From Actinopolyspora halophila DSM 43834 (lineage in GTDB: Bacteria; Actinomycetota; Actinomycetes; Mycobacteriales; Pseudonocardiaceae): a stretch of DNA of 64,000 bases. The stretch is from NCBI RefSeq assembly GCF_000371785.1, contig NZ_AQUI01000002.1, forward strand, positions 4,947,352 to 5,011,351, written 5' to 3'. A program made the position numbers and the translations under genes. This document shows positions 7,730 to 58,639 of this stretch, piece after piece (the stretch's first letter is position 1; every line of letters begins with the position of its first letter). The notes under the pieces were generated by a model. That model was not told the origin of the DNA and ran no database searches. It saw nothing but the letters and a program-made list of their open reading frames with translations.

Positions 7730-8596
7730 GCCGCCAGGTTAGCGCCCACGGCGGGGTGGACACGCGACGCACGGGTGCGACAAATCACGGTCCGCGCGAG
7801 CGGATCCAGGGGCCGGCGGGGCCTGCGGGCGACCGGACGGCGGACCAGGGGGCTCGCCCCGGAAAGAGCACGAAGCCGCGATCGAGTCGCCTCTCGGACT
7901 CGGGCTCGGCTTCCGCGTCGGCAGCCGGGAACTCCCGTCGCACCACGGACGGCATTCCGCGATCCCCTTTCCCGGATGACAAAGCGCCGCATCACCACAG
8001 GTGAAATCGGACCGTTATTTATTTGCCACTTTCTTGATCCCTCGATTGTGGCACTAATCACATATTCGGGTGAAATAGGGACACAGGCACTTCACAACGT
8101 TACTTTCTAATTCAAACTTCACTCGATTGGAGCAGGGCAGTGGCCTTGTGGTCATTGCTCAACTCTGCGAAGTTTGGCAGCGCTCTGACGAGATCGGCTC
8201 CCACGCACTCCCCGATCCCGTCGGAGTCATGGACGGTCCGCACCCCCCGTCGGACCGTGCCTGCCGGGCCAGGGTCTCCCCGCCTACTGCGCCCGGCACA
8301 GCGGAACCCCCGCGCGGGGCGGCTCGAGCTCGTGACTCCCCCTCTCTCCCGAGCCGTCCCGCGCCGGGTCCGACAAGGCATCCGAAAGTCTTCGGAGCCC
8401 CCTCCCACTCGTCGCGGAGCGGTGGCCGATCCACTGCTAACCGCATCGGAGCACCGACTCGATCCCGGATACCACCAACCGGTTCACGCTTAAACGTACC
8501 GGCGGAACGCTCGGCCCGCCGCCCGAAATCGACGTCCCGGGCGTCAGTCGCTCAGCAGCACCCGAGCCAACCGAGCAGCCGAACTCTCGCCAAGAG
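7730..8596. other. 867-bp intergenic region with an AT-rich centre
   Basis: No convincing coding region on either strand. Roughly 8010-8130 is strikingly AT-rich for this genome. It contains an imperfect direct repeat, GGTGAAATCGG at 8000-8010 and GGTGAAATAGG at 8069-8079. It lies upstream of gpmA (minus) and downstream of the YbjN gene (minus), so it probably holds the gpmA promoter. Open frames here have arginine/serine-rich translations with no family resemblance. Confidence 0.5.
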
Positions 8597-9130
8597 TTAC
8601 AGTTCGGAATCGGACACGGGGAGGACTGCGCCCTCCCGCTCGACGAGCGAGCTGAACGCGCGCAGATTCGCCAGCGATTCACCGCGCGATTCCCGCCAAC
8701 CCCACTCACGACGGATAGCGGTTGCGAAACCGATTCGCAACAAGGGGTTGAAATCGCCGTCCGCGGCTTCCAGGACCTGCCCCAGAACACGGTCGAGTTC
8801 CGCGGCATCAACCGCGTGCAAACCGATTCTTCCGATCAGGTAAAGATCGCCGGTGCTGTCGACGGTGTAGTGCACCCCGTACAGCCGCGCGTTGCGGCGC
8901 AGCACGTAGCGGTAGAACTCCTCGTGCCCCTCGTCGGGTTGCCTGCACACGAACGCTTCCACGATCAACGAGTGCTCGGAGACGATCAGCCAGCAATTCG
9001 TCTGCAGTTTGTTGCTGCCCGGCAAGGTGACGAAGAACCTTCCGAGTTCGGGGTGCTCGTAATCGAGTTCCCCGTCATCCAGAGTGGCCTTGATTACTCG
9101 GTCGAGTGATTCCCGCGCGTTTGAGCTCAT
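8597..9130 (-). CDS. YbjN domain-containing protein (Rv0487-like)
   Basis: A 177-residue soluble protein of the YbjN family (alpha/beta fold resembling type III secretion chaperones). Recognisable segments are SLIVEAFVCRQPDEGHEEFYRYVLRRN (centre) and LYLIGRIGLHAV, which match the actinobacterial YbjN pattern. Role is unclear; in M. tuberculosis the orthologue lies between mshA and gpm1, exactly as here. A GAGGAG ribosome site precedes ATG 9130. The gene follows mshA's neighbourhood in the same orientation but with a 135-bp gap to the mshA stop. Confidence 0.85.
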   Translation of the reverse strand: MSSNARESLDRVIKATLDDGELDYEHPELGRFFVTLPGSNKLQTNCWLIVSEHSLIVEAFVCRQPDEGHEEFYRYVLRRNARLYGVHYTVDSTGDLYLIGRIGLHAVDAAELDRVLGQVLEAADGDFNPLLRIGFATAIRREWGWRESRGESLANLRAFSSLVEREGAVLPVSDSEL

Positions 9131-12993: not shown

Positions 12994-12997
12994 CGGT

Positions 12998-13085
12998 CTT
13001 TGCGTGGGTGGTCGGGTAGCCGTCACGTGAGTCGGCGCCTTGCGACGTTGGGCCGCTGGTGAGTAACCACCTACGCGGCGAGCGG
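12998..13085 (+). repeat. Dispersed intergenic repeat, copy near 13.0 kb
   Basis: Begins four bases after the SDR stop codon. 12998-13014 is identical to 55482-55498 (17 bases). 13020-13043 is identical to the reverse complement of 22222-22245 (24 bases). 13031-13085 aligns with 55731-55786, including the shared TTGGGCCGCTGG. It fills the gap between two convergent genes and could also act as their terminator region. Confidence 0.75.
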
Positions 13086-21774: not shown

Positions 21775-21914
21775 CCCACGATTCTGACAGCGTGCGCCGA
21801 GCACGGGGTCCGGCCGCACCACTCCCGCAACGTGCGGAGGTTCCGCCGACCGCGACCGCCGCGGTAACCGAGTCAACCGAACGGCCCGAACGGATCGGAC
21901 GAGCACTCCGCTCC

Positions 21915-22050
21915 AACGCAAGCGCTTACGAGCCCGAGCAGTCGGCACCGCCGGGGTTCTCGGTCTCGGGTCTCGCGAGGACAACCCCGACGTTGTGCAG
22001 GTGCCTACCCGATGTCGGGGATCGGAGCAGCGAGCCCCCGACTGAGGTTC
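21915..22050 (-). repeat. Structured dispersed repeat, copy near 22.0 kb
   Basis: 21920-21934 is identical to 55847-55861, and the next 110 bases align with 55862-55970 at the same spacing. It contains a nested hairpin: outer CTCGC (21972-21976) with GCGAG (22030-22034), middle CCCCGAC (21985-21991) with GTCGGGG (22014-22020), inner GCAGG (21997-22001) with CCTAC (22004-22008). Relative to the other copy the middle stem has changed on both sides yet still pairs. Confidence 0.75.
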
Positions 22051-22221
22051 GGTCAACCAAGCCGACGAACTCCTGCCGGGAACTTCCAGCAGAAGGACTT
22101 CGTCCGACGCGAGCGCTTGGAGCCTGGGCAGGACGAGAAGCTCCGGTGCGTGAGTCGGATGCATCGCAAGGCGGGGAGGGCACGTTGTGTAGGCCGCTAC
22201 TCGAGGTGCCCTCCAACGCCG

Positions 22222-22245
22222 GCAAGGCGCCGACTCACGTGACGG
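22222..22245 (-). repeat. Dispersed repeat fragment upstream of the DapC-type gene
   Basis: These 24 bases are the exact reverse complement of 13020-13043. They lie 52-75 bp upstream of the aminotransferase start, so this copy may include promoter or leader sequence. Confidence 0.7.
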
Positions 22246-22296
22246 TCACCCGAGGCGGCTACGCAAAGTCCCGTTATGAGTTATAAGGTTCGCCTC

Positions 22297-23463
22297 GTGC
22301 GTACTCCAGCCCTGACCCGTCGACTGCGCCCGTTCACTTCGACGATCTTCGCCGAGATCACCGAGCTCGCCCGGAGCACCGGCTCCGTCAATCTGGGGCA
22401 GGGCTTCCCCGACACGGACGGACCCCCCGGGATGCTGCGGCGGGCGGAACGCGCCATCGGCGAAGGGGTGAACCAGTACCCGCCCGGGGCGGGCGAACCC
22501 GAGCTGCGCGCCGCCATCGGCGCCCAACGCCGCGCGGACTACGGGATCGAGCACGACCCCGACGGCGAGATCCTGGTCACCGTCGGAGCGACCGAGGCGA
22601 TCAGCGCCTCGATGCTGGCCCTGGTCGAGCCGGACGAAGAAGTAATACTGATAGAGCCCCACTACGACGCCTACCCGGTCGCGGTGGCGATGGCGGGTGG
22701 AGTGCACCGGTCGGTCCCCCTGCGCGCCGAGCGGGGACGGTTCCGACTCGACACGGCGGCCCTGCGCGCCGCCGTGGGGCCGCGCACCAGAGCGGTGGTG
22801 CTGAACTCGCCGCACAATCCCACGGGGACCGTGTTCACCGCGGACGAGCTGGCGGCGATCGCCGAGATATGCCGCGAGAACGACCTGCTCGCCATCACCG
22901 ACGAGGTCTACGAGCACCTGCTGTTCGACGGCAGGGCGCACACCCCGCTCGCGACGCTGCCCGGCATGGCCGAACGCACCCTGTCGATCTCCAGCGCGGG
23001 CAAGAGCTTCAGCGTCACCGGCTGGAAGATCGGCTGGGTGTGCGGTCCGGCCGAACTCGTCTCCGCCGTGCGGGCGGCGAAGCAGTTCACGACCTTCGTC
23101 GGGGGAGCTCCCTTCCAGCCCGCCGTGGCGCACGCCCTGAACGAGGAGCGTCCCTGGCTGGAAGGACTGCGTTCCGAGCTGCAGCAGAAGCGGGACCGGC
23201 TGACGAGCGGATTGCGCCGGGCCGGGTTCGACGTGCTGCCTTCGGAGGGGACCTACTTCGTGTGTGCCGACGTGCGCCCGCTCGGTTACTCCGACGGGGC
23301 CGAGTTCTGCCGCGCGCTGCCCGAGCGGATCGGGGTCGCGGCGATCCCGCCCCAGGTGCTCTGCGACGACCCCGAACCGATGCGTCACCTGGCGCGTTTC
23401 GCGTTCTGCAAGCGGGACGAAGTGATCGACGAGGCCGTCGAGCGGCTGCTCGAACTCGGCTAG
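22297..23463 (+). CDS. dapC: Probable N-succinyldiaminopimelate aminotransferase
   Basis: A class I/II PLP aminotransferase of 388 residues, resembling M. tuberculosis DapC (Rv0858c), an enzyme of lysine/diaminopimelate synthesis. Visible elements: VNLGQGFPDTDGPP near the N-terminus, the VNQYPPGAG loop, VTVGATEAI, NSPHNPTG, the Asp/Tyr in ITDEVYEHL, and the PLP Lys in SISSAGKSFSVTGWKIGW. C-terminal RFAFCKRDE holds the substrate carboxylate Arg. GTG 22297 follows AAGG at 8 bases; ATG 22276 is an alternative. A distant relation to kynurenine or methionine aminotransferases cannot be excluded without phylogeny. Confidence 0.82.
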   Translation: MRTPALTRRLRPFTSTIFAEITELARSTGSVNLGQGFPDTDGPPGMLRRAERAIGEGVNQYPPGAGEPELRAAIGAQRRADYGIEHDPDGEILVTVGATEAISASMLALVEPDEEVILIEPHYDAYPVAVAMAGGVHRSVPLRAERGRFRLDTAALRAAVGPRTRAVVLNSPHNPTGTVFTADELAAIAEICRENDLLAITDEVYEHLLFDGRAHTPLATLPGMAERTLSISSAGKSFSVTGWKIGWVCGPAELVSAVRAAKQFTTFVGGAPFQPAVAHALNEERPWLEGLRSELQQKRDRLTSGLRRAGFDVLPSEGTYFVCADVRPLGYSDGAEFCRALPERIGVAAIPPQVLCDDPEPMRHLARFAFCKRDEVIDEAVERLLELG

Positions 23464-51268: not shown

Positions 51269-51435
51269 CGTGTTTCCACCCGCGAGGCGGACCGAGTTCC
51301 CCGCCGTGCCGCGGGTGTCGGAGGGCGCCCGGAAAACTCCTCGTGGAGCTTTTCCGGTCGAGTTGTTGGTCGGGTCGGATCATTTCGACGCGGCAGCACC
51401 GGAACGCCCCACGACAAGGGGACGGAGGACCTCGA

Positions 51436-55730: not shown

Positions 55731-55983
55731 GTCGGCGCCTCGGGAGTGTTGGGCCGCTGGCGCGCAGCCACCCGCGTCGCGAGCGGCCCAATCGAGTCGC
55801 TGCGAACCCGGACAGGAGCTCCCGGAAGAAGGACACCGTCCAACCCAAGCGCTTACGAGCCTGAGCCGCCCGACCGACCGCGGGTTCTCTCGTGGTGCTC
55901 TCGCGAGGACAGCCTCGACGTTGTGTAGGTGCCTACCCGATGTCGAGGATCCCGCAGCGAGAGCCCGCGAGAGGTTCCGCCAC
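55731..55983 (-). repeat. Structured dispersed repeat, copy near 55.9 kb
   Basis: 55731-55786 aligns with 13031-13085. 55847-55861 equals 21920-21934, and 55963-55983 is the reverse complement of 23498-23518. Nested hairpin: GCTCTCGC (55897-55904) with GCGAGAGC (55957-55964), CCTCGAC (55913-55919) with GTCGAGG (55942-55948), GTAGG (55925-55929) with CCTAC (55932-55936). It fills the space between the tiny acidic gene and paaE. Confidence 0.75.
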
Positions 55984-56023
55984 GCAACCCACCGAGCGAC
56001 CGGCACCGCCGAAAAGCTCCCAG

Positions 56024-57118
56024 TCAGACGTCGTAGTCCACCGCGACTTCCTCCGAAACGGGAAGTGCCTGGCAGGTCAGCACGAAGCCGTCGTCCAGTT
56101 CGGTCTGCTCCAGGGCGAAGTTGCGCCGCATGCGCACCTGTCCCTCGGTCACTCTGGCCCGGCAGGTTCCGCAGACCCCGCCCTTGCAGGCGAACGGGAG
56201 ATCGGAGCGCACCCGCTGCGCCGCGTCGAGCACCGGGGTGCCCTCGTCGAGCGCGATCTCGGTGGTGCGTCCGTCCAGGGTGACCCTGCCCGTGCCCGCG
56301 GAACCGTCACCGGTCTCCTCCTCGTGCCGCACGGGCTCGGGAGGAAGTTCGTCCACGTAGAACAGTTCACGACGCACTCTGTCCGGGGGGACCCCCAGGC
56401 CGTCGAGCACGCGTCCGGCAGCGTCGACCATCCCGTACGGCCCGCACAGCCACCAGCGCTCCGAACCGTCCAGCGGGATCAGCGTGCCGAGCAGTCCCCG
56501 CAGCTTGTCCTCGTCCAGCCGTCCGGTGACCAGCTCAGACTCGCGCGGCTCCCGGGAGAGCACGTGCACCAGCTCGAACCGGGCCGGATACCGGTCCTTG
56601 AGATCGGCCAGCTCGTCGATGAACATCACCGTGTCGCTGCGCCTGTTGCCGTAGACCACCGTGACCGTGGAGCCGGTTTCGGCCAGCAACGAGGAGGCGA
56701 TGGACAGCACCGGGGTGATCCCGGACCCGGCCGCGATCAGCACGTGCCTTCCCGAGGTGTCCGGTTCCGGGGTGAACCGCCCGGACGGGGGCTGCACCTC
56801 GACCTCGTCGCCCGCACCGACCTCGCCGGTCAGCCAGCCGGAGAACATTCCCCCCGGCACCAGGCGGACACCGATGCGGAGGCGTTCGCCGCGCCGAGCG
56901 CAGATCGAGTAACTGCGGCGGTGCTCGCCCTCGGCCGTCCACCGCCGCAGGGTCAGCGACTGCCCCGGCCGGAAGTCGAACAGCTCGGCCAGCTCCGCGG
57001 GCACGTCGAAGGTGACGGCGACGGCGTCGTCACACAGCTTCTCGACGTCGGCCACGCGCAGCGTGTGGAAGGCGTTGTCGCCCCGCGTCCTCGGACTCGA
57101 AACCGTCGGCGTCGACAC
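56024..57118 (-). CDS. paaE: Phenylacetyl-CoA epoxidase reductase subunit PaaE
   Basis: Electron-transfer subunit of the ring 1,2-epoxidase. 364 residues: FNR-like FAD/NAD part (RRSYSICARRGERLRIGVRLVPGG and GSGITPVLSIASSLL) and a C-terminal plant-type [2Fe-2S] domain (CKGGVCGTCRARVTEG ... TCQALP). GTG 57118 is the start. Last gene of the paaABCDE operon. Confidence 0.94.
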   Translation of the reverse strand: MSTPTVSSPRTRGDNAFHTLRVADVEKLCDDAVAVTFDVPAELAELFDFRPGQSLTLRRWTAEGEHRRSYSICARRGERLRIGVRLVPGGMFSGWLTGEVGAGDEVEVQPPSGRFTPEPDTSGRHVLIAAGSGITPVLSIASSLLAETGSTVTVVYGNRRSDTVMFIDELADLKDRYPARFELVHVLSREPRESELVTGRLDEDKLRGLLGTLIPLDGSERWWLCGPYGMVDAAGRVLDGLGVPPDRVRRELFYVDELPPEPVRHEEETGDGSAGTGRVTLDGRTTEIALDEGTPVLDAAQRVRSDLPFACKGGVCGTCRARVTEGQVRMRRNFALEQTELDDGFVLTCQALPVSEEVAVDYDV

Positions 57119-58542: not shown

Positions 58543-58639
58543 GACGTTAACCTCCCGGGGCGACGTCCGCTGTGCTCACTGATGCTTCCCCGTCCTGTCG
58601 TGTCGGTGGACCGAATCGAGGGCGAACAGAAAAGCTCGG

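Follow-up and report, generated by a model that had tools for sequence, protein, structure and literature searches.

A dispersed REP-like family of nested hairpins with co-varying arms close to gene ends in Pseudonocardiaceae

REPINs with RAYT transposases are reportedly short non-autonomous repeats that form long-lived genomic populations, and integron attC sites, which carry the inverted core boxes GTTRRRY and RYYYAAC, are folded from the bottom strand. REPs are described in PMC3733652 as sequence-conserved repeats of 20-40 bp that bear a terminal tag and whose sub-types occur in mosaic combinations, and the GTAG/CGTC-tagged ones lie no more than 20 bp from the 3' end of an ORF, both in convergent and in unidirectional spacers; further, effects on translation have been ascribed to E. 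coli REPs situated within 15 nt of stop codons (work cited in PMC12306157). The repeat described here resembles REP/BIME sequences in being dispersed, high-copy (at least 147 copies), palindromic and intergenic, in its sub-type mosaics, and in its location near ORF 3' ends, with 50 sites in convergent and 69 in tandem spacers vs. 9 in divergent ones. Unlike REP/BIME sequences, its hairpin spans about 100 nt plus flanks, the sequences of its arms co-vary, a terminal GTAG/CGTC tag is missing (GTAG is confined to the apical part and is not retained in other genera), and the genomes that carry it have no consistent Y1/RAYT gene. It is, like REPINs, a short non-autonomous repeat, but a RAYT-type Y1 gene is absent from 37 of 56 carriers; and, like the E. 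coli REPs at stop codons, it is a palindrome near a stop codon, but the favored folding strand is antisense to the gene and the hairpin begins about 40 nt away. That is, size, co-varying arms, the absent tag and the inconsistent presence of a RAYT gene separate the family from RAYT-bound REPs, while it is REP-like in place; since published REPs also occupy gene 3' ends, the place of this element is a known kind of place.

The likeness to attC is that structure is kept while sequence varies, that the element lies just past stop codons, and that one strand, antisense to the gene, is favored for folding; together with the variable arms and the conserved unpaired bases, these features could suggest a single-strand recombination site comparable to attC. 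We consider this scarcely credible, however, because the pair of inverted core boxes (in the consensus given above) is absent, the GGTTC words at the base of the hairpin being direct rather than inverted repeats, and because the genes around the elements are syntenic core genes, not cassettes.

We analyzed a window of 64 kb, namely C2:4947352-5011351 of the 5.35 Mb source genome (G000; dnaA at C2:165220), for which the original prediction had described two intergenic copies sharing a nested hairpin. Both copies are real and were found where they had been placed, with the hairpin proper at 21952-22053 and 55880-55980 (both on the + strand), but they belong to a much larger family, and a further copy (copy 2) adjoining copy 1 had been overlooked. 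Specifically, a covariance model (R1) built from an alignment of 30 diverse copies (A1) finds at least 147 copies in the source genome (best 150 of 6768 candidates scored), which is a lower bound, further copies having been seen beside the listed ones. Similarly, blastn with copy 1 returns at least 42 places in the genome (best 40 of 231 candidates scored), and the apical motif GTTGTGTAGN{2,8}CTACYCGA has 95 exact places vs. 0 for the reversed control pattern, far more than chance would give. The copies and remnants within the window are as follows.

21893..21951, + strand: left flank of copy 1, type A, about 60 nt, common to other copies in the alignment
21952..22053, + strand: nested hairpin (P2) of copy 1, from the R1 model (89.3 bits), the sequence and the blastn family; outer arms 21955-21976 / 22030-22050, middle stem 21985-21991 / 22014-22020, apical core 21992-22012
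22054..22072, + strand: right flank of copy 1, passing into the left flank of copy 2, from the alignment of 129 downstream flanks
22073..22142, + strand: left flank of copy 2 (type 2), common to other type-2 copies
22143..22245, + strand: nested hairpin P2 of copy 2, type 2, from the R1 model (80.6 bits), pattern and fold
22246..22292, + strand: right flank of copy 2, with words that recur in other type-2 right flanks
55810..55879, + strand: left flank of copy 3, type A, from the alignment and flank coverage
55880..55980, + strand: nested hairpin P2 of copy 3, from the R1 model (114.6 bits); occurs in genomes G001 and G002
55981..56023, + strand: right flank of copy 3, up to the antisense stop codon at 56024, 43 nt from the hairpin model end to the stop (gene by Pfam)
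about 12994..13082, - strand: remnant that follows a stop codon and comprises the right half of a type-2 element; the orthologous end bears an element in G001, G002, G003 and G009
51350..51435 (limits approximate), + strand: remnant at a gene end, with P2 missing between the left and right flank; an element is present there in G001, G003 and G009

Copy 3 follows the stop-codon rule described below, the gene on its 3' side encoding a ferredoxin-NAD-FAD oxidoreductase (Pfam) with its stop codon antisense to the element, whereas copy 1, whose divergent spacer is flanked by a DUF445 gene and an aminotransferase gene, is an exception to it. The stems of copy 2, GGAGGGCAC/GTGCCCTCC and TGAGTCGG/CCGACTCA, are unlike those of copy 1, while its apical motif (22184-22204) is shared; the orthologous spacer of G002 is without copy 2. 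The right flank of copy 2 also holds the ATG at 22276 that was called as the start of the downstream aminotransferase ORF. Since G002 has no copy 2 repeat there but keeps the GTG that follows, the true start is probably this GTG, near 22297, rather than the ATG. More decayed remnants are seen at 8573-8601 and 58580-58639 of the window, and sister species bear full elements at those gene ends. Elsewhere in the window, ARAGORN reports a tRNA-Gly(ccc) of 102 bases at 1044-1145, which is not among the hits of the Rfam scan at gathering score.

Each unit is a nested hairpin (P2) of about 100 nt, with arms that are variable yet matching and with conserved internal-loop words. In 5' to 3' order, it consists of a variable left flank, an outer stem, an internal loop, an inner stem, an apical core and a right flank that is C-rich and about 40 nt long. 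The outer stem comprises some 15-17 pairs and, at its base, a conserved stretch of G.U, U.U, U.G, GGGTTCTC / GAGGTTCC, and the internal loop is asymmetric, with GAGGACAGC facing GATCCCNNA. The left flank varies in type and length between units; at position -60, at least three other copies still cover the position in 86% of 129 sites. Conservation among the copies of the source genome fades slowly upstream, over 60-280 nt; past the model end, it is still 0.76 at +31 but has dropped to 0.03 at +51. Outer-arm, inner-arm and flank sub-types are freely combined among copies. The right flank did not emerge as a gene-end motif independent of P2, given that most of its matches adjoin P2 (alpha 84/116, beta 14/19, gamma 10/31), and many of the gamma matches are further type-2 copies or remnants. 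In one locus of another genome (L078, G003:C1:88505-91524, element at 1457-1564), the apical core has the opposite orientation to that of the outer arms and flanks, as would result from a flip of the interior between its inverted arms.

The middle stem reads CCCCGAC/GTCGGGG in copy 1 and CCTCGAC/GTCGAGG in copy 3, exactly as the original prediction had it, and both sides have indeed changed together; the difference is, however, a family-wide variant found en bloc in many copies and not two isolated point changes. RNAalifold on alignment A1 gives 29 pairs, 17 of which are changed on both sides. In an alignment of 34 cross-genus elements (A3, i.e., 34 of 35 distinct elements of equal length, with L356, 88 nt long, omitted), 96.0% of the cells pair vs. 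80.9% after shuffling and 142 cells are changed on both sides vs. a shuffled mean of 51.2, with none of 500 shuffles reaching either value. The covariation score is 0.431 vs. 0.143 for shuffled alignments, and the signal is gone (at most 0.130) when the partner is slid by 1-3 columns. The scan pattern used to collect these loci fixes the arm ends and the 5' half of the loop but not the 6-9 middle pairs that underlie the covariation. For one set of loci (L255-L374), the closing arm was found in its simple form at 50 of 126 pattern places, and the remaining 76 were omitted from the arm and stop statistics, although several of them plainly have a slightly different closing arm.

Non-standard pairs are unevenly distributed between the two strands. 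Read along the element strand, the 35 distinct cross-genus arm pairs include 32 G.T and 4 A.C wobbles (28 and 3 in the smaller, first locus set), and the ratio of G.T to A.C is 74:30 in 71 arm pairs of the source genome (from 133 alignment rows). Over all paired columns of 130 copies of the source genome (the distinct ones among 139 alignment rows, after dropping two reverse-strand duplicates and repeats), it is 577:94, mostly due to four columns that are G.T nearly throughout. The element strand is more stable than its complement in 121 of these 130 copies, with a mean difference of 10.3 kcal/mol. Strand-biased mutation was rejected as the cause of the wobble asymmetry, since the ratio is alike for copies pointing toward (79:30) and away from (40:11) the origin, and transcription-linked mutation bias can be argued against only on general grounds. 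Hence, it seems that P2 pairing is important on one strand, either as RNA or as single-stranded DNA.

It could be argued that no selection on folding is needed and that mutation alone matches the arms, that is, quasi-palindrome correction by template switching plus gene conversion. The arms do change in blocks, indicating that replacement by recombination contributes to the covariation, and whole elements are exchanged at orthologous sites. Further, at least five copies of the source genome have unmatched outer arms (L041, L050, L051, L061 and L073), and such copies resemble half-conversions. On the other hand, correction would erase an asymmetric loop, whereas across the 34 cross-genus sequences the loop GAGGACAGC / GATCCCNNA is conserved and left unpaired (with its 5' half fixed by the scan pattern), and wobbles tolerated mainly on one strand are not expected from plain arm-to-arm copying: the excess of G.T over A.C is not what templating would yield and is unchanged by replication direction. 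Thus, mutation alone is a highly improbable explanation, and the paired cells, the double changes and the one-strand wobbles support, at the level of sequence comparison, the view in the original prediction that the hairpin is a structure under selection; many copies without compensatory change, the outcome named there as contrary, did not arise. The element fits no recognized family, also as predicted. An Rfam scan of the window at gathering score returned three tRNAs only and no match at the element, relaxed scans of the site and six relatives gave no meaningful match (i.e., above chance) at the element, and a known RNA family was ruled out by cmscan.

With respect to genes, the 129 sites of the source genome comprise 50 convergent, 48 tandem antisense, 21 tandem sense and 9 divergent ones plus one at a region edge, and none lies inside a called gene, in agreement with the prediction that the sequence is not coding (genes were called with a home-made codon-usage caller and no annotation). 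The 3' neighbor of the element is an antisense stop codon in 98 of 128 sites, and in 88 of the 98 this codon lies 27-65 nt beyond P2 (median 40). The abutment is one-sided: the gap on the 3' side is at most 10 nt in 89 of 128 sites vs. 11.9 expected from uniform placement in the same spacer, compared to 2 sites on the 5' side. The same arrangement is observed in other genera, with an antisense stop at 16 of the 19 non-genus loci having a 3' neighbor among L124-L144, all 16 at 27-49 nt, and at 38 of 49 loci among L255-L374, 32 of the 38 at 18-65 nt. Two units stand head to head in several convergent spacers; in four cases, the type-2 right flank, too, is no more than 9 nt away from an antisense stop of its own. 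A gene start is found on the 3' side in 30 of 128 sites, at a distance of at most 67 nt in 13 of the 30. These start-facing sites, together with copy 1 in its divergent spacer, mean that a boundary role would have to accommodate different situations, and, since ordinary REPs also lie close to stop codons, position alone is no proof of function.

Given that the element strand folds, that a gene adjoins its 3' side and that this gene is usually antisense, we infer that the element is a barrier against antisense or read-through transcription. Specifically, RNA polymerase would come along the element strand, by convergent read-through or antisense transcription, and the nascent element-strand RNA would fold into P2 ahead of the gene. 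The right flank of the source genome is rich in C (0.43) and poor in G (0.22) and T (0.08), with nearly equal values in other genomes; Rho loads on C-rich, G-poor unstructured RNA, and this stretch behind P2 might be one for Rho loading. No T-run was seen in the 129 right flanks as read, meaning that the U-tract of an intrinsic terminator is missing. P2, perhaps assisted by Rho, may then hinder transcription running into the gene, while copies would be replaced and lost as family members recombine and slippage occurs at short direct repeats. Accounting for the family as a dispersed, non-coding, REP-like gene-boundary element of Pseudonocardiaceae, whose nascent RNA hairpin hinders polymerase from entering the gene and whose copies are replaced by recombination, is a proposal that we hold tentatively and regard as somewhat short of probable. 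The more sweeping version, in which the family would represent a hitherto undescribed class of gene-edge RNA elements, with a strand-specific co-varying hairpin at well over 100 gene borders of one genome blocking antisense and read-through transcription, kept vertically at certain gene ends while its sequence is repeatedly swapped whole between family members, seems rather unlikely to us.

Alternatively, P2 read in sense could shape the mRNA end of its own gene, and the family might simply be an ordinary 3'-end element whose sense mRNA hairpin protects or terminates the transcript of the stop-codon gene. Terminator hairpins are usual about 40 nt past the stop codon, which is where P2 is found, and where a sister species lacks P2, a small hairpin can occupy the site (end of gene W4 in G000). 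The effects on translation of E. coli REPs near stop codons (cited in PMC12306157) would also be in line with a 3'-end role. Nonetheless, a G.T on the antisense strand is an A.C in the sense RNA, so that the wobbles favor the opposite strand, as does the greater stability of the element strand noted above, and the gene starts faced by 30 of 128 sites do not fit such a role either; we consider it distinctly unlikely.

A covariance-model search of relatives, the check suggested with the original prediction, matched 56 of 200 sampled Pseudonocardiaceae genomes from 15 of 46 genera, and, in an order-level sample, 20 of 298 genomes, all of them Pseudonocardiaceae except one weak case. In genome G046, from another family of the same order, the model gives two weak matches (best E 2.4e-5). 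By name, the loci among the matches listed come from Saccharopolyspora, Halosaccharopolyspora, Halopolyspora, Amycolatopsis, Prauserella and one Planctomycetales metagenome contig, the latter (L285, DAIDHB010000198.1) showing the family pattern. Within the genus, pattern counts per genome are 17, 84, 53, 60, 101, 0, 60, 32 and 80, and the model still gives 4 matches in the genome with 0. Searches of the open-access literature turned up no account of the repeat family.

Comparison of the syntenic regions of G001, G002, G003, G006 and G009 revealed that gene ends are re-used by elements. At the stop of gene W10, for instance, G001, G002, G003 and G009 have an element and the window a remnant, and at the end of W54 an element is present in the window, G001 and G002, with outer and inner arms replaced together in G002. 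Among G004, G005, G007 and G009, which are about 91-98% identical, units are swapped, doubled or lost. P2 is absent in both G001 and G004 at an identical junction, between GCCGCG and AGAGGTTCC, as slippage at CCGCG would predict.

The main competing explanation is a selfish miniature repeat (REP, REPIN or MITE) moved by a transposase that reads folded single-stranded DNA, in which case the location at gene edges would reflect insertion tolerance or targeting and the G.T pairs would be wobbles of single-stranded DNA. Dispersal, high copy number, strand-specific folding and counts ranging from 0 to 101 within a genus are what such a repeat would show, as is an intergenic location close to gene 3' ends like that of REPs (as described in PMC3733652). 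In addition, Y1 transposases (PF01797) are more common in carriers, with a match in 19 of 56 vs. 23 of 144 other genomes (p 0.007; for all carrier vs. gene counts, equal draws were taken as one set of 200 genomes). However, the association is gone without the own genus (11 of 46 carriers vs. 23 of 144), and no PF01797 match was found in 37 of 56 carriers, including the element-rich G002, G008 and G022. RAYT was accordingly rejected as a requirement, the weak Y1 excess coming from the own genus. The selfish explanation is further weakened by the syntenic regions compared, where neither a clean empty site nor a target duplication was seen, and by plasmids and phages, among which one 141-base query found no match. 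While a selfish REP-like origin is compatible with all observations, we regard transposase-driven mobility as a genuine but doubtful possibility.

The sharp 3' and ragged 5' boundary of the unit had also suggested spread driven by a reverse transcriptase. Matches to PF00078 are rarer in carriers than in other genomes (15 of 56 vs. 72 of 144), and none was found in G000 or in 41 of the 56 carriers. We therefore reject reverse-transcriptase-driven spread for the present, RVT_1 being missing in the own genome. With 37 of 56 carriers lacking Y1 and 41 of 56 lacking the reverse transcriptase, neither gene class is needed.

Should the boundary proposal hold, a bacterial family rich in antibiotic producers would fence its genes from antisense transcription with one recurrent RNA shape, and natural variants would reveal which parts of the fold matter. 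Even if selfish, the family would be REP-like and persist without RAYT, origin-proximal, its structure kept while its sequence turns over. It also makes the cause of arm matching in bacterial repeats testable, i.e., selection vs. copying.

Finally, the family is unevenly laid out on the chromosome. The origin half of the source genome holds 125 of the 147 copies, and 100 of the 147 point toward the origin; the corresponding values in G003 (dnaA at 862) are 42 and 38 of 53. The ratio of copies pointing toward vs. away from the origin is 36:12 for sites with a stop on the 3' and a start on the 5' side, 35:15 for convergent sites and 10:12 for sense-tandem sites, and the orientation bias is thus partly due to gene direction. 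The two Y1 matches of the source genome (G000:C2:2798646-2799008 and 3412107-3412469), equal in score and frame length, are located in the terminus half, which has few copies of the repeat.
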